A model generated the notes under the pieces. It did not search any database. It saw nothing but the letters and a program-made list of their open reading frames with translations, and was not told the origin of the DNA. The translations under genes and the position numbers were made by a program. DNA of 64,000 nucleotides from Enterovibrio baiacu (GTDB lineage Bacteria; Pseudomonadota; Gammaproteobacteria; Enterobacterales; Vibrionaceae): contig NZ_SCHN01000010.1 in assembly GCF_004120195.1 (NCBI RefSeq), positions 124,001 through 188,000 on the forward strand, given 5' to 3'. How positions within the stretch are numbered: the stretch's first letter is position 1; the number at the start of each line of letters is the position of its first letter. This document shows, in pieces, positions 16,159 through 57,831 of this stretch.

Positions 16159-17076
16159 ATGATGCATTTGGATCCGAAGCTGTTTAGGGCATTTAAGGCT
16201 GTCGCGGAATCACGAAGTTTCAATGATGCCGCTGACATTGCCGCCATGACACAAGCCAACATCAGCAAACACATCAAAAGCTTAGAAGAGCAAGTGGGCT
16301 ATGAGCTGTTTGTTCGCACCCCCAAATGCCCCATCATCACGGATGCGGGCAAAAAATTACTGCAACACATCAAAAACCTCGAAGATTTGAACAGCGATTT
16401 TTCTCTGGAAGTGAAGAACGACTACCACCAGATAGAAGGCATCGTGTCCTACGCCATGCCGCCCTCTTGCTTGCTGTCGCCGCACTTTCCCATGCTTTTA
16501 GAACGTCGGCTCAACTACCCCGAGCTCGAAATAGACCTCACGCTCACACACAACAAACAGGTCTTTGAGAAAGTGTTATCTGGGCAGGTTGATTTTGGGT
16601 TCGTCACCGAGAAGGTGGATCACCCACGTCTGAAATACTACGAATTCTGTCAGGAGGAGTATGTCATGGTGGGCGCGCCAATCACCGACGTATCTGGCTT
16701 AAATGAAAAAAGCATGCTCAATTACAACTACATCGAATACCCCGGCATGGGGGTGTATTTCAATTATTGGCGTCAGCATTTCTTCCCGCAACTCGATTCA
16801 GTCAACGACCTCTCCGTTCACTTTGCAGGCCGTATCAACAGCATCGAAGGCGCTATTTTGATGGTTCTGGGTGGCCTTGGTATCTCCATTTTCCCCCGGC
16901 ACTGCATACAGCAATACCTCGACAGTGGGCAAATGAACGAGTGGCATGTTAACGCTGAGGACTCGAAGCCATTATTCAACGACATTTACATTGTAAAACT
17001 GAATCCGGGCAGCGAGCCAAAACGCGTTGAGAAGGTCATTTCTTGGTTTATGGCGATATCTCAGGGAAAGCATTAA
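16159..17076 (+). CDS. LysR-family transcriptional regulator
   Basis: This 305-residue regulator has an N-terminal winged helix (FRAFKAVAESRSFNDAADIA, then MTQANISKHIKSLEEQVG, residues 9-47). An effector-binding domain follows from about residue 95 (PBP2 fold, GQVDFGFVTEKVDHPRLKYY). ATG 16159 and 16162 are adjacent alternatives. LysR regulators often control divergent neighbours, but the genes on either side are not divergent metabolic genes, so the target is unknown. Confidence 0.85.
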   Translation: MMHLDPKLFRAFKAVAESRSFNDAADIAAMTQANISKHIKSLEEQVGYELFVRTPKCPIITDAGKKLLQHIKNLEDLNSDFSLEVKNDYHQIEGIVSYAMPPSCLLSPHFPMLLERRLNYPELEIDLTLTHNKQVFEKVLSGQVDFGFVTEKVDHPRLKYYEFCQEEYVMVGAPITDVSGLNEKSMLNYNYIEYPGMGVYFNYWRQHFFPQLDSVNDLSVHFAGRINSIEGAILMVLGGLGISIFPRHCIQQYLDSGQMNEWHVNAEDSKPLFNDIYIVKLNPGSEPKRVEKVISWFMAISQGKH

Positions 17077-52292: not shown

Positions 52293-53258
52293 TCAGCCAA
52301 GTCGAGATTCAATAAAATCCAGAATGGCTTGCGCATCATCATCACTCATCTTTTTAAGGTTGATCGACAATGCATCACCTTTACGGCGGTAGCTAACACG
52401 CCCCTTAATCAGATCCGTTGCCGGCGACTCTTTCTTCACTGAAGGCTTCAGTGATTCACGCCAATCTTCAATAATGATCGTCACTTCACGGGTTATACGA
52501 CTCACACCATGGGCATCAACCGTTTGCCAAAGTGGCGCTTCGCCGAGCTTCGTCAGAAGCTGAGATTGCTCGTCATGACTCAGCGAAAAGAACAAGCGGT
52601 GAAGTTTCACGATTGTCGGACGGCCAAGCTCAGCAACACTTGGATAAGCTTGAAGTACAGGCAATGGCAAAGAAGCCGCTTTAAGCGCACCACTTACCAG
52701 CGCTTCACTGCACTGACACACCTTCGCCAGCTCTTTTTGATCGAGCACATCGCCGCGATCAAGCATGGCTTGCATCTCTTTACCGCGCTCAAACAGAGAA
52801 AGCGGTTTATGCGCGTTGGCGACATCAGACAAGAATTTTGCGTGCTTGCTGTTAATGCCCTTGGCGACGTAAACCAGGAAGTCTTGTTTCGCCAAAATAC
52901 ACGACATGCGACGACGGCTACCGTCGAGCACTTCAATCTTGTTATCGTCTAACCAACGACCAACCGCAGGATATTGCTGACCACGGTCTTTCAAGGTCAC
53001 CAAAATATCGGATAACGCGAGTTCGTTTAGAAACGATTGTTCACGGGCATTTTCTGCAAACACAGACGTACGAGAAACCACGTCCCCTGCTGCCACGCGC
53101 ACGAGTTCAAATTCAACCGTCGCTTCGCCAGCAACAGAAAGCTCAATCACCGCCGCTTTTTCTGAGGCTGCTTTTTGCGCTTCTTGCGCGGTGGTTGCAC
53201 GTCGTTTATCTGCTTTACCGAACAGACGCGCGTTCAATTCTGAAGTTTTAATCGCCAT
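52293..53258 (-). CDS. parB2: Chromosome II partition protein ParB2
   Basis: This 321-residue CTP-dependent DNA-binding protein loads at parS2 sites and spreads to form the partition complex of chromosome II. A nucleotide-binding ParB/Srx fold covers about 60-130, with the arginine patch DGSRRRMSC. A central HTH follows (QKELAKVCQCSEALVSGALK, about 170-195), then a C-terminal dimer domain. It resembles plasmid-type and Vibrio ParB2 rather than chromosome I ParB. An AGGAG site overlaps the parA2 end. Three matching parS2 sites are in this window. Confidence 0.9.
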   Translation of the reverse strand: MAIKTSELNARLFGKADKRRATTAQEAQKAASEKAAVIELSVAGEATVEFELVRVAAGDVVSRTSVFAENAREQSFLNELALSDILVTLKDRGQQYPAVGRWLDDNKIEVLDGSRRRMSCILAKQDFLVYVAKGINSKHAKFLSDVANAHKPLSLFERGKEMQAMLDRGDVLDQKELAKVCQCSEALVSGALKAASLPLPVLQAYPSVAELGRPTIVKLHRLFFSLSHDEQSQLLTKLGEAPLWQTVDAHGVSRITREVTIIIEDWRESLKPSVKKESPATDLIKGRVSYRRKGDALSINLKKMSDDDAQAILDFIESRLG

Positions 53259-53261
53259 TTA

Positions 53262-54485
53262 TCACTCCTGATTTCGCTGCGACCAATGGCTGTGAAGCAC
53301 GCGTTCTAGCTCCAGCCCTGCACGGTGAACCGCTTCTTGTGCGGTAGATAAGGTTTTTTTGCCGCCTTCAAAGTCTTGCGCGGTCAAATCAAACACAGTG
53401 CTGTAGGTATCAGCACAGGTTTCAAATGCACGGCTACGAGGAATGGTGGCCATCATGACTTGGTCACTCAGCAGATAATTCATCTCCGTCAGCACCGACA
53501 CTTGCTTCTTATTGTCGTCCTCAAACATGGTTGGCATCAAGCGAACAAACTCGAGACCAGGCCAATCTTCAGGGAACATTTCGTAAACCGTTGGCAAATG
53601 CTGGAAGAAATTCACGGTAGATGCCCAGTCCAAGCGCTTTGCCGCACACGGAATGATCAAAGCATTCGACGCGTACATGGCGTTCCACACCAATGGATCG
53701 ATGTGTGGGCCAGTATCAATCATGATGATGTCAAACTCGTCAGCAATCGTGTCGATCACTTTCTCTTTCAGCAACTGAACCACATCCAACGAGCCGTTTG
53801 TCGCCAGATTTTGCCATGCTTCAGCGTTAAACATTGCGTCTTCTGGGAAGGCTGCAATGGTTTTCAAATTCGGGTATTGGGTTGGCAAGAGAACATTTTT
53901 CATCATGAACTCTTTATCAGCGTCTTGTGGCGTGTTTTCCAACATCACGTCCACCGCAGAGTAAATGCCCTCTTGCTCGTTAACGCTGATCATAGGGTTG
54001 AGGAAAAGACGCAAAGAGCCCTGTGGATCAAGGTCAATCAAGCAAATGCGGTAGCGCTTTTCGAGGTTCAATGCCATGCAAGCAGCCATATGAACCGCAC
54101 TCATGGATTTACCCGTACCACCTTTTTGGTTCTGAATATTGATAACCCAAGGCTTATGCCCTGCACCTTTACCTTGATGAAAAGCAGGCATTTTTGCCGC
54201 TTCCATAATCTGGTGAGCTTCATCTAAGGTAATCGAGTAATGGTTTGCATTGTTCTTAGTAAACTGATGACCCGCTTCTTCCATGCGGCTGATCGCTTCA
54301 TCAAGCTTACGTCGGGTTAACCCAGAACGTGTTTCCATCAACGCTTTAGACATAGGTGGGAACAATTGATCGTGACGCTCTTCCATCACAATCTCAATGC
54401 GGTCAGCTTGAACCTGCTTGGTTTGCTCTGCAATAGATTGCAGATTTTGTATCGTCTTTTCCCTATTCATTTTTCTTTTCGCCAT
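53262..54485 (-). CDS. parA2: Chromosome II partition ATPase ParA2
   Basis: This 407-residue ParA ATPase of the P1/plasmid (type Ia) class moves ParB2-parS2 complexes to segregate chromosome II origins. An N-terminal HTH extension of about 110 residues precedes the deviant Walker A (KGGTGKS, 121-127) and Walker B (IIMIDTGPHID). The extra N-terminal domain allows autoregulation in this class. ATG 54470 (MNREKTIQ) is an alternative start and closer to the start I recall for V. cholerae ParA2. The gene diverges from the origin. Confidence 0.92.
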   Translation of the reverse strand: MAKRKMNREKTIQNLQSIAEQTKQVQADRIEIVMEERHDQLFPPMSKALMETRSGLTRRKLDEAISRMEEAGHQFTKNNANHYSITLDEAHQIMEAAKMPAFHQGKGAGHKPWVINIQNQKGGTGKSMSAVHMAACMALNLEKRYRICLIDLDPQGSLRLFLNPMISVNEQEGIYSAVDVMLENTPQDADKEFMMKNVLLPTQYPNLKTIAAFPEDAMFNAEAWQNLATNGSLDVVQLLKEKVIDTIADEFDIIMIDTGPHIDPLVWNAMYASNALIIPCAAKRLDWASTVNFFQHLPTVYEMFPEDWPGLEFVRLMPTMFEDDNKKQVSVLTEMNYLLSDQVMMATIPRSRAFETCADTYSTVFDLTAQDFEGGKKTLSTAQEAVHRAGLELERVLHSHWSQRNQE

Positions 54486-54663
54486 AAAAGAGAATTAAAT
54501 TAATTGTACAGCACTTTACAGAACGCACAATAAAAAGCTGAACGTGCTGCATAAAAAGTAAGACGGCGCTCACTTTATGACAAAGCCTTGAAAAAATTCG
54601 ACAAAATTATGTGACTTTGTCATGGCGTAAAATGGCAGATTTAAAGTGTTACAGCGTCACCTT

Positions 54664-54676
54664 TTTACAATGTAAA
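54664..54676. other. parS2: parS2-like site 3, at the origin
   Basis: TTTACAATGTAAA matches TTTACANTGTAAA exactly. It lies 179 bp upstream of the parA2 start, between parA2 and the iteron region. Confidence 0.88.
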
Positions 54677-54847
54677 CCGATATTGAAGCTAAAAATTACG
54701 CACTTTCCCCGGAACAGTGATAAGAACGCGCTAAATTACGGACGTTGTCGATTCAACTAGCGATCATGCTGAAAATCACCAGTACAAAATAAATAACGTG
54801 AAAAGCTTACAGTGAAAAGGGGAGGGTAAAGCGAGTTTATCCCTTTA

Positions 54848-54877
54848 CTTGATCATCTTTCCGAAACGATGATCAAG
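54848..54877. repeat. Inverted pair of RctB-type iterons
   Basis: Plus strand CTTGATCATCTTTCCG and minus strand CTTGATCATCGTTTCGG overlap by three bases head to tail. Both contain GATC. Confidence 0.8.
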
Positions 54878-54925
54878 AGAGCGGTACTTTCTAAGATTTA
54901 CATTGCGAATCACTCCTCGCCTATC

Positions 54926-54964
54926 CTTGATCATCTTTCCAAGCCAAAACCGGATTAATGGATG
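54926..54964 (+). repeat. 39-mer-like element 1
   Basis: It begins with the iteron CTTGATCATCTTTCC and continues AAGCCAAAACCGGATTAA. The end TTTCC and GGATTAA are partly inverted. Element 2 at 55383 has the same order. A reverse iteron (CCTTGATCATTCATCC, minus strand) abuts at 54960-54975. It resembles the 39-mers through which RctB inhibits oriCII in V. cholerae. Confidence 0.65.
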
Positions 54965-55026
54965 AATGATCAAGGTGTTAATGCGCACAAAATTTCAACA
55001 CTTCATAGAATTCGACGATCCTATTA

Positions 55027-55046
55027 GCCCGAATAAATGATCAAGG
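55027..55046 (-). repeat. Single RctB-type iteron
   Basis: Minus strand CCTTGATCATTTATTCGGGC. It is in the rctA-like half of the origin region. Confidence 0.65.
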
Positions 55047-55220
55047 GAAATAACGGTGAAATGGAGAGGATAAATCGCGCCGGAACGATATTGAGTCCCG
55101 ACGAAATTACGGTACATGCCTTTTCAATACTGGATCTATGGGCTTAACTCAATGAAAAGAGGGTAAAGATGAAGCTCGAACTCATGTTCATATGACAATA
55201 TTGAAATGCAGAGACACACA

Positions 55221-55239
55221 CTTGATCATTGTTTCGGGC
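55221..55239 (+). repeat. Single RctB-type iteron
   Basis: Plus strand CTTGATCATTGTTTCGGGC. It stands alone between the two 39-mer-like elements. Confidence 0.7.
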
Positions 55240-55382
55240 ATCGGACACATATTGTGTGCCGTCTAAAATACGTTGGTTGTCGTTTCAACTTGTGTAAATG
55301 GACTGGCTTCGGCCACCAGCCTATATGTACCTTGCTGGAATAATGCGCTTTAAAGGCGGAAACATGGTCAAAAAGACGTTCT

Positions 55383-55418
55383 CTTGATCATTTATCCAAG
55401 GCCAAATACCGGATAAAA
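55383..55418 (+). repeat. 39-mer-like element 2
   Basis: CTTGATCATTTATCC followed by AAGGCCAAATACCGGATAA. TTATCC and GGATAA are an inverted pair around a 13-base centre shared with element 1. It lies about 80 bp from the DnaA box. Confidence 0.65.
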
Positions 55419-55460
55419 GCACATAAGAGGGCAGGGGAGGGCGAAGTTATTATTTTGGCT

Positions 55461-55469
55461 TGTGGATAA
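55461..55469 (-). promoter_or_regulatory. Perfect DnaA box
   Basis: Plus strand TGTGGATAA, i.e. TTATCCACA on the minus strand. It sits 15 bp before the first phased iteron, where oriCII of V. cholerae also needs DnaA. Confidence 0.9.
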
Positions 55470-55483
55470 CATGTGCAGTTGCC

Positions 55484-55617
55484 ATGATCATGCTTTTGGC
55501 GGTTCGATGATCACGTTTTCGATATTCTGATGATCATCGTTTCAGGCTTCTAATGATCATGCTTTCATGCGTTTAATGATCATCTTTCCATGTTTAACAT
55601 GATCATGCTTTCGAAAG
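55484..55617 (+). repeat. Array of six RctB iterons with 23-bp period
   Basis: ATGATCA begins at 55484, 55507, 55530, 55553, 55576 and 55599, exactly 23 bp apart. Each is followed by a T-rich tail such as TGCTTTC, TCGTTTC or TCTTTCC. All are in the same direction and all contain GATC. Two helical turns per unit place RctB on one face of the DNA. This is the core iteron array of the origin. Confidence 0.95.
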
Positions 55618-55621
55618 CGCT

Positions 55622-55750
55622 CTATTTTTAATTAACATTTATCAATCACTTATAGCATCGCGAACGGCCAGATCATAAGATCATATAATCAGTAAGATCA
55701 TACTTAATCAAAAAGATCAGTTAAAAGGGAACAATAAAAAAGATCTTTCT
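55622..55750. other. AT-rich unwinding element with ATCA repeats
   Basis: A strongly A/T-rich stretch follows the iterons. ATCA recurs at 55672, 55680, 55688, 55697, 55707 and 55716, every 8-10 bp, with two more at 55641-55648. In V. cholerae RctB binds such repeats in single-stranded form to open the origin. Confidence 0.8.
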
Positions 55751-55773
55751 TTCTTATTTTTTTTCTATTAATC

Positions 55774-55800
55774 TTCTCGGAAAGATGGCTCATTTACGGC
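55774..55800 (-). promoter_or_regulatory. Candidate rctB operator
   Basis: Minus strand GAGCCATCTTTCCGAGAAG carries the CATCTTTCCGAG tail of the iterons without the full TGATCAT core. It lies 49 bp before the rctB start. RctB represses its own promoter through a related 29-mer in V. cholerae. Confidence 0.6.
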
Positions 55801-55848
55801 CACATGTATTCTGATAACTTTACAGGCTTAACAAGGAGCTGTGGCAAG

Positions 55849-57831
55849 ATGGCCTCAAGTCCCTCGGAAAAAATTCTGATCCCCGCACCACGATCGCACA
55901 AGGATGGTCACCTTTTTGAAGTACATGCGCAATTGATCGATTGGTTACCCCAGTACGAGCATTTCCGTGGTGTCACCAAAAGTATTCTTGAATTGCTTAA
56001 CCTTATCTCACTTCGAGGCTTCGCTTCAAAAGACGGTGTCGTTTCAACCACCGAGCTTGTTGAGGCAACGGAAGGGCAATTAACCCGCGCTGCCATTCAG
56101 CAACGTTTGAGAGCGGCGGTACAGATAGGTTTGTTTACACAACAAGGTGTCCGATTCGAAGAGGGTTTGGCGGGCAAAACCATGCTGCACCGTTTTGTTA
56201 ACCCAAGTCAGTTGATCTCAGTGCTAGGCTCTGCGGGCCTGCAATCTGAAAAAACCAAGGTGATGGAAAAGCAAAAGCGTTCCAAAGCATTGGCACAAAA
56301 TCACGTCAATAAGCAGCTGCTTAGCGAGCATGGTTTGGGCATTCCACCGTCGATGCAAGATGAGAAAGATCATATCGTGATCGCGCCGACCAGTTGGGCC
56401 GGGATCATCGACCAAGCGCTTGCTCCGCCAAGAACGAAAAAGAGTTATCAAAAATCGATGGTGGCGATCAGCGGCACTAAAGCGATCATCGAAACACGAT
56501 CGTCAAAGTCGATCATGACCGTTGATGATCTGATGACCTTGTTTGCACTGTTTACGTTGACCGTGCAGTACCATGATCATCATTTGCCAAACTACGAGCT
56601 ACAGACGCAGAAAGTGGGAAATAAAACGCCCGTCTATATCACTGATATTCTGTCGTTACGTGGCAAAAAGGACAGCGGTCCAGCCCGTGATTCCATCCGT
56701 GAAAGTATCGACCGTATTGAATTTACGGACTTCCAGCTTCATGAACTGACAGGGCGCTGGTTGAGTGAAAACATGCCTGAAGGTTTTAAAAGTGATCGTT
56801 TTCGCTTTATTGCCCGCACCATCACTGCGTCGGAAGAAGCACCACGTGAAGGTGAAGATGGCGAAATTCGTATTAAGCCGAATTTGTACATCCTGGTCTG
56901 GGAACCGTCATTTTTCGAAGAATTGATGACGCGAGACTACTTTTTCTTGTTCCCACCAGAGATTTTGCGCCAGCATACCTTGGTATTCCAGCTCTATAGC
57001 CTCTTCAGAAGCCGCCTATCGCGTCGATTGGAAGATTCCATGACATTGAGCGACCTGAACCAGAAAATGGCGAGAAACATCGAATGGCGACGTTTTTCGA
57101 GTGATTTGATCAGAGAGCTGCGAAAACTGGCGAAAAAAGAAACCCAAACCGAGGATGTGTTTGCGGTGAACTTGTGGGGTTATCACTTAACCGTGTATCA
57201 ACTCGACAATGATAAGAAACACCCAGATTACCGTTTGGACATCAAATGTAATGTGGATGAGGTGATCCGTTTTTCTCGTGCTAAAACCTACAACGAAGGA
57301 AAACGATCTTTGGCACCGACCATGCCAAACCCTCTTCGCAATGAGATCATGCCGAAGCAAGACCTTGATCAGCTTTCCGAGATCATTGACGGTGAATTCG
57401 AACCAATTCAGCGTAAAGAAAAGCGGGGAGGACGCTTAGGGCGCCGCGTTAAGCTGCGTAAGCACCTGGTTGAGATCAATGCTGATGAACTGACGATCAC
57501 CTTGTCGAAGTACACCTCCCCCGAGGCGATGCAGCGCAGTATTACGGCATTGTCAGCCATGACAGGGCACCCTGCGGCGACCATTACTGAAGAATGTCAA
57601 AGCTACATGGACAAATTGGATTGGTTACGTGTGGATGGCGAAATCATGTCATACGAAACCTTGAGCCGCACGATCGAGTTTTACAACAGCCAAAACGAAG
57701 CGGGGCATTTGTCGATCGAGCGCTTAATCTCAGGCTTGGCCGTACGTCGTAAGGTATGTCGTCAGGTATTTGATGGCCATTTAGATGGCACCGTGTTGGC
57801 CGTTTTAGACGAAGTGGCTGCCGGAGGATAA
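55849..57831 (+). CDS. rctB: Chromosome II replication initiator RctB
   Basis: This 660-residue initiator binds iterons and 39-mers and starts chromosome II replication. It keeps RctB family sequence throughout: HKDGHLFEV, GVTKSILELLNLISLRGFAS, LTRAAIQQRLRAAV, WAGIIDQALAPPRTKKSYQK, KKDSGPARDSIRESIDRIEF, SFFEELMTRDYFFLFPPEIL and KHLVEINADELTITLS. ATG 55849 (MASSPSEKILIP) follows AAGGAG; the frame is open from ATG 55804 but that start has no ribosome site and would overlap the operator region. Length agrees with V. cholerae RctB (658). It contains an iteron-like sequence at 57364-57381. Confidence 0.96.
   Translation: MASSPSEKILIPAPRSHKDGHLFEVHAQLIDWLPQYEHFRGVTKSILELLNLISLRGFASKDGVVSTTELVEATEGQLTRAAIQQRLRAAVQIGLFTQQGVRFEEGLAGKTMLHRFVNPSQLISVLGSAGLQSEKTKVMEKQKRSKALAQNHVNKQLLSEHGLGIPPSMQDEKDHIVIAPTSWAGIIDQALAPPRTKKSYQKSMVAISGTKAIIETRSSKSIMTVDDLMTLFALFTLTVQYHDHHLPNYELQTQKVGNKTPVYITDILSLRGKKDSGPARDSIRESIDRIEFTDFQLHELTGRWLSENMPEGFKSDRFRFIARTITASEEAPREGEDGEIRIKPNLYILVWEPSFFEELMTRDYFFLFPPEILRQHTLVFQLYSLFRSRLSRRLEDSMTLSDLNQKMARNIEWRRFSSDLIRELRKLAKKETQTEDVFAVNLWGYHLTVYQLDNDKKHPDYRLDIKCNVDEVIRFSRAKTYNEGKRSLAPTMPNPLRNEIMPKQDLDQLSEIIDGEFEPIQRKEKRGGRLGRRVKLRKHLVEINADELTITLSKYTSPEAMQRSITALSAMTGHPAATITEECQSYMDKLDWLRVDGEIMSYETLSRTIEFYNSQNEAGHLSIERLISGLAVRRKVCRQVFDGHLDGTVLAVLDEVAAGG

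Follow-up and report, generated by a model that had tools for sequence, protein, structure and literature searches.

The DNA described here carries a complete RctB-dependent origin of chromosome II (ori2, also oriCII), a new member of an ori2 family whose system itself is textbook. It lies in a window of 64,000 nucleotides, the whole stretch analysed, which covers positions 124001-188000 of contig C44 in a 5.37-Mb assembly (52 contigs, completeness 100). The origin itself is known biology, and what a comparison with relatives adds is the state of the iteron array, a third 39-mer-like site and, above all, a rule of spacing in whole turns of the helix. Taken as a whole, we consider it very probable that this is the origin of chromosome II (chromid) in what is most likely an Enterovibrio, that it works in the manner of the Vibrio cholerae origin with an ori2-inc region that is probably phased, and that the extra 39-mer-like site is usual on the non-Vibrio side of the family. 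The sequence itself establishes the parts and how they are ordered, together with the linked genes and a single crtS-like site, and the activities of the parts would be those that the literature describes for V. cholerae.

Sites of the origin and adjacent genes

Six iterons (the 12-mer array, 55484..55621, + strand) stand head to tail. The first-pass annotation had reported ATGATCA at 55484, 55507, 55530, 55553, 55576 and 55599, each unit having a GATC and a T-rich tail, and both observations were borne out: all five steps are exactly 23 bp, and direct reading of the sequence found the T-rich stretch after the GATC in every unit. The region 54486-55848 holds nine copies of ATGATCA, compared with a mean of 0.25 and a maximum of 3 in 2000 dinucleotide shuffles, and a chance origin of the array was rejected because none of these shuffles gave even two copies 23 bp apart. 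The density of GATC is 15.4 per kb in the origin versus 4.7 per kb in the whole window, and the genome encodes both Dam and SeqA. The perfect DnaA box annotated at 55461 is indeed present (TGTGGATAA, that is, TTATCCACA on the - strand; 55461..55469, - strand); it precedes the array's first TGATCA by 24 bp and is the only perfect copy on either strand of the window.

Beyond the array, TATCAATCACTTA (55640..55652, +) is a candidate IHF site, the sole match to the IHF consensus in 54400-56000. The ATCA repeats, previously noted at 8-10 bp steps in an AT-rich stretch, number six in the DUE (55672..55719, +), with starts at 55672, 55680, 55688, 55697, 55707 and 55716 and steps of 8, 8, 9, 10 and 9 bp; A+T is 0.73 across 55620-55780, and three other ATCA occur in 55600-55850, at 55602 (within iteron 6), 55641 and 55645. 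A predicted 29-mer-like RctB operator, CTCATTTACGGCCACATGTATTCTGATAA, lies in the rctB promoter region (55789..55817, +), with a weak score of 12.6 from a matrix to which sites of this kind contribute; matches of this type are found at -85 to -40 from the rctB ATG in 55 of the 80 loci introduced below, where they stand 182-191 bp from iteron 6.

The features first listed were a partial set, to which we add the 39-mer-like and 29-mer-like sites, the seven TGATCA sites of ori2-inc and parS2. Leftmost is a parS2-like palindrome, TTTACAATGTAAA (54664..54676), found by a pattern scan with the parS2 motif; the window contains four palindromes of this type (TTTACANTGTAAA, at 16985, 46770, 49339 and 54664), and most relatives have a parS2-like copy ahead of their array. 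A family matrix, grown from the two clear copies 39L and 39R of the window, predicts three 39-mer-like RctB sites on the + strand and gives a weak match at 55789: a left site (39L, 54731..54769, score 29.9, the site itself having seeded the matrix), a central site (39C, 55102..55140, score 28.8) and a third site (39R, 55263..55301, score 22.1, this site too being among the seeds). Five TGATCA sites of 11/12-mer type, oriented from their flanking bases, are located at 54850(+), 54870(-), 54928(+), 54967(-) and 55038(-), spanning 54850..55043, and the sequence scan found two more, s2 (55223..55228, +) and s1 (55385..55390, +, 100 bp before iteron 1). The two outermost TGATCA of ori2-inc form an inverted pair 20 bp apart (54850-54875); an outer inverted pair of 20-21 bp is also seen in the loci L002-L011 and L014-L017, and the Vibrio loci present a different outer pair.

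The gene downstream of the origin is rctB (55849..57831, +), encoding the chromosome II replication initiator of 660 aa, with AAGGAG at 55833-55838. It was identified through the Pfam RctB models PF11826 (RctB_central, E 4.8e-187, residues 157-486) and PF18622 (RctB HTH, E 4.6e-58, residues 15-121), and NCBIfam assigned no family to its product. The RctB of Enterovibrio norvegicus DSM 15893 (L002) shares 100% protein identity with it, and this identity despite a DNA difference of about 9% in the surrounding 11 kb points to a very strong constraint on the initiator. From the two values, we take the window to come from an Enterovibrio that is near this strain yet distinct from it. On the - strand, a parA2-like gene (53262..54485, 407 aa) encodes a partition ATPase matching AAA_31 (E 4e-22) and other models, as well as TIGR03453 (E 2.4e-37), the latter with a score short of the model's cut-off. 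The parB2-like partition gene (52293..53258, -, 321 aa) matches TIGR00180 parB_part with 65.7 bits for a cut-off of 58.45, and with default thresholds Pfam gave no family for its product.

Spacing of the RctB sites

For the comparison, we used the best 80 of 187 RctB loci found; we excluded one of them, L035, which has 82 bp of sequence ahead of rctB, and the first set of 80 therefore consists of 79 named loci and the window. A six-iteron array is present upstream of rctB in the window and in all 79 loci with enough upstream sequence. The non-Vibrio side comprises L002-L043 and the window (L035 not measured), including L043 (Vibrio sp. Of7-15) on account of its array and 39R type, and the Vibrio side comprises L044-L081. 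Since the spacing pattern had been noticed ahead of its test, a held-out set was drawn from 138 further loci (L083-L220): after removal of L209, which could not be oriented, of 33 loci with 97% identity or more to the first set and of one such duplicate of another held-out locus, 103 distinct origins remained. The search patterns for these loci fix the array (and in one search also the DnaA box at 24 bp) and leave the ori2-inc distances free, 100 of the loci being hand-picked from match listings in which many near-identical arrays were skipped.

The distances of the ori2-inc TGATCA sites from the array form clusters separated by about 10-11 bp. Those of s1 are 76-78, 87-92, 98-103, 110-111 and 120-122 bp in the first set, and the same clusters recur in the held-out set in a broader form, with values of 80, 93, 97 and 109 also present. 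Five adjacent intervals were then followed (s4-s3, s3-39C, 39C-s2, s2-s1 and s1-iteron 1). Their changes, counted by parsimony along an RctB protein tree in the first set and along a tree of the DNA from the array to the rctB start in the held-out set, were compared with a jitter null of our own design with 20,000 draws. In the first set, 82 changes were of 1-2 bp, 1 of 3-7, 32 of 8-13, 4 of 14-17, 6 of 18-24 and 6 larger. The 47 changes of 5-45 bp gave a mean cos(2 pi d/10.5) of 0.545, for a null of -0.04 (sd 0.10), a value reached in 0 of the 20,000 draws, and the best-fitting period was 10.9-11.0 (0.57). The held-out origins, of which 16-24 of the 103 had no recognisable site pair for a given interval, showed 90 changes of 1-2 bp, 8 of 3-7, 42 of 8-13, 3 of 14-17, 10 of 18-24 and 3 larger; 58 changes entered the test and gave a mean cos of 0.551 (0/20,000 null draws), with a best period of 10.4-10.5. 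In both sets, the signal persists when the threshold is varied between 3 and 7 bp and when any one interval is removed. Taken singly, all five intervals reached p < 0.05 in the first set and three of the five in the held-out set, where s3-39C (p 0.25) and s4-s3 (p 0.07) were not significant alone.

These results suggest that the net spacings between the RctB sites of ori2-inc change mostly in whole helical turns, and ori2-inc is therefore probably a phased, helically aligned assembly. Selection for helical phase, which would agree with a looped OFF complex, seems to us somewhat the more probable cause. Steps of about 10.5 bp could also come from mutation rather than selection, if duplications and deletions of one turn are common in AT-rich, repeat-rich DNA. 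The interval from iteron 6 to the rctB ATG, taken as a control, does have 8 changes of 8-13 bp among its 44, and it is unphased (cos 0.017, p 0.24, with only 17 usable changes); the ratio of 3-7 bp to 8-13 bp changes is 9:8 there, compared with 1:32 and 8:42 in the first and held-out sets (Fisher p 8e-5 and 0.007, respectively). In favour of mutation, a leaning to phase is also seen further upstream, where parS2-39L, at first meant as a control, is weakly phased (cos 0.291, p 0.007) and parA-parS2 tends the same way (cos 0.176, p 0.10); 39L-39C is weakly phased as well (cos 0.270, p 0.0175), and parA-parB offered only 2 usable changes (cos -0.95). The leaning of parS2-39L, 39L-39C and parA-parS2 could belong to the phased assembly itself or express a general tendency of mutation. 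On the other hand, among individual alignment gaps of 5-45 bp in 36 sister pairs, neither the 36 in ori2-inc (cos -0.09) nor the 41 in the rctB 3' flank (cos -0.24) showed a 10.5-bp preference. This argues against a mutational origin and, within ori2-inc, counts against the helical reading as well. The discord between gaps and net distances means either that small indels sum to whole turns, which would point to selection on net distance, or that the aligner splits gaps. On balance, we regard a purely mutational cause as doubtful while leaving it some weight.

A fuller picture is that of ori2-inc as a phase-locked looped machine, in which RctB sites must keep to one face of the helix across the Vibrionaceae with spacings in whole turns, and the geometry between brake and array differs by side of the family. 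To this picture we give an even chance.

The third 39-mer-like site and the period of the array

Because 39R was among the seeds of the family matrix, circularity was avoided with a Vibrio-only matrix, for which 73 left and central sites, all from L044-L081, were used. Between 260 and 130 bp ahead of iteron 1, this matrix gives the window a score of 15.2, with maxima of 10.3 in 400 shuffled stretches and of 12.5 in 160 stretches of rctB genes. With 12.5 as a strict threshold, the site is called in 30/42 loci of the non-Vibrio side (Photobacterium 18/23, Grimontia 1/2) versus 2/38 of the Vibrio side; relaxing the threshold to 3.8, which is the 99% level of the shuffles, gives 34/42 and 3/38. 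The held-out loci reaching at least 12.5 are 14/19 in g8, 5/109 in g12 and 0/8 in g2, the codes g1, g2, g8, g9 and g12 standing for genera that we infer. That 39R might be a chance or decayed sequence rather than an RctB site is suggested by the 12 of 42 non-Vibrio-side loci that stay under the strict threshold, among them all three Salinivibrio and Grimontia celer, one of the two Grimontia. Against this stand the score of the Vibrio-only matrix, above both control maxima, and the distance from 39C, which is 147-161 bp in the 35 loci where the family matrix calls both sites, and we find chance or decay unlikely. The ori2-inc of the non-Vibrio side would accordingly be predicted to carry, usually, one more 39-mer-like site of the inhibitory type; for V. 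cholerae, PMC11711613 reports two 39-mers and one 29-mer, versus the three 39-mer-like sites of the window.

The array also separates the two sides. Of the first 80 loci, 41 have spacings of 23 bp throughout (23x5), 31 have 23-23-22-23-23 and the other 8 are spread over five less common patterns. All 42/42 loci of the Enterovibrio/Photobacterium side have a third spacing of 23, and all 38/38 Vibrio/Aliivibrio loci one of 22; among the held-out loci fetched it is 22 in 109/109 of g12, 23 in 19/19 of g8 and 22 in 7/8 of g2. The exact 23-bp period is therefore characteristic of the Enterovibrio/Photobacterium side; on the V. cholerae side, iterons 3 and 4 are one base closer together, as in V. 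metoecus (L076; 23,23,22,23,23). PMC6090056 gives V. cholerae spacers of 10 or 11 bp, which differs from the exact 23x5 of the window. The statement that the window shows the same features as V. cholerae oriCII holds for the parts, which are common to both, and fails for the exact 23-bp period, absent from the V. cholerae side; nor could a single sequence define the conserved bases, as had been proposed, for which the comparison of relatives was needed. At 10.5 bp per turn, 23 bp make 2.19 turns, so the iterons would not lie on one face but wind round the helix.

At the genome level, a search pattern with a middle gap of 15-18 matches 276/329 genomes of the family, and the exact 23x5 pattern is present in 85/329: 0/227 in g12, 52/52 in g8, 16/18 in g1, 7/8 in g9, 2/14 in g2 and 8/10 in the other eight genera. 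The two g1 genomes without it measure 2.1 and 2.6 Mb; in G016 (2.1 Mb) and G020 (2.6 Mb), which belong to the genus of the window, neither of the two iteron-array patterns searched was found. Two g2 genomes (G005 and G014), from a genus otherwise of the 22 type, carry the 23x5 array by reversal, retention or independent gain. The symbiont Candidatus Enterovibrio escacola (L012) has an irregular array (24,23,23,22,23), one upstream TGATCA in the stretch scanned and no 39R, and its brake seems to be decaying. The DnaA box stands 24 bp from the array in 67/80 loci, 25 bp in 1 and 35-36 bp in 12, and its two positions are related by a shift of 11-12 bp. Together, two geometries emerge: non-Vibrio origins usually combine a third 39-mer-like site with an even 23-bp array, and Vibrio origins nearly always do without that site and are a base shorter from iteron 3 to iteron 4.

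Replicon, related systems and proposed working

The claim of a complete chromosome II origin is supported by rctB downstream, by the divergent ParA/ParB-like genes, by a single rctB in the 5.37-Mb assembly, by a crtS-like site and by the GC skew, mostly negative before about 55 kb of the window and positive after, which switches sign near the origin. A second copy of rctB or ori2 in the same assembly was rejected, only one rctB match being present. The crtS search string, taken from PMC5854411 and allowed up to 3 mismatches, gave exactly one match, on contig C12 with 1 mismatch, the window being on C44. The reversed-pattern control gave 0 matches. The crtS-like site lies about 0.35 kb after a GTPase gene, which from our reading of its sequence we take to be der. 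A remnant or plasmid-borne copy of ori2, such as a second RctB replicon, is very improbable, since, while RctB branches from Vibrionales plasmids do appear in a figure legend of PMC8826520, the assembly with a completeness of 100 has one rctB match, the named origin parts are all present and RctB is identical over 660 aa to that of E. norvegicus DSM 15893 though the surrounding 11 kb of DNA are only 90.9% identical.

As a chromosome II origin, the region is closest in its description to V. cholerae ori2, with which, according to PMC6090056 and PMC11711613, it shares the 11/12-mers and 39-mers of ori2-inc, one DnaA box, six head-to-tail GATC iterons, a DUE with six ATCA, rctB and parS2; the IHF site and the 29-mer in the rctB promoter have weak candidates here. 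In V. cholerae, crtS is on chromosome 1; the crtS-like site found here is on contig C12. V. metoecus has six TGATCA upstream of the array versus seven in the window. Photobacterium, Grimontia and Salinivibrio have the 23x5 array in all measured named loci, as in the window, and differ from it in interval lengths, often by whole helical turns. The iteron plasmids F, P1 and R6K are not known to have a crtS. They share with ori2 the initiator-bound iterons and a handcuffing or looping brake (PMC11711613, PMC8826520) and differ in that, according to PMC11711613, their initiators bind iterons only, hence without separate 39-mer brake sites. The RctB chromid origin of Plesiomonas shigelloides has an RctB relative, six regular GATC repeats, a DnaA box and parAB, but its 8-mer and 10-mer repeats are of other sequence and it belongs to another bacterial order (PMC8826520).

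Four papers (PMC6090056, PMC3141006, PMC11711613, PMC3937223) describe for V. cholerae that RctB binds Dam-methylated iterons and unwinds the DUE, that the 39-mers and the 29-mer inhibit through RctB-bridged loops, and that ParB2 from parS2 competes with this inhibition, which the copying of crtS releases; PMC11711613 adds that RctB holds the six ATCA repeats in the single strand of the opened DUE. By analogy, RctB on the six Dam-methylated iterons would open the adjacent AT-rich DUE, where the single-strand ATCA repeats would keep it, and together with DnaA and IHF it may recruit the helicase, the DnaA, IHF and helicase steps drawing on one box, one consensus match and the literature. The ori2-inc would act as a brake, RctB on the 39-mers and the 29-mer looping the region and hiding the iterons. 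ParB2 from parS2 would compete with the RctB-bound brake, and duplication of crtS on chromosome 1 would release it.

The OFF-state loop model (2025; PMC11711613) has RctB bridging its sites, and we reason that such bridging would favour sites that face each other. In the literature searched, mostly without subscription papers and some of it seen in part, we found no prior statement on helical phasing with RctB, on the state of the array or on 39-mers in Photobacterium. A Photobacterium profundum ori2 replicon is reported in PMC5854411 to fail, without explanation, to respond to the Vibrio crtS; the different geometry of brake and array could underlie this insensitivity. P. profundum has no named locus among the best 80 of 187. 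The spacing data of the whole family look like the footprint of the OFF-state loop, and they give a directly testable structural constraint by singling out intervals for half-turn versus full-turn alteration. Natural origins with two or three 39-mer-like sites also bear on how many brake sites crtS must release.
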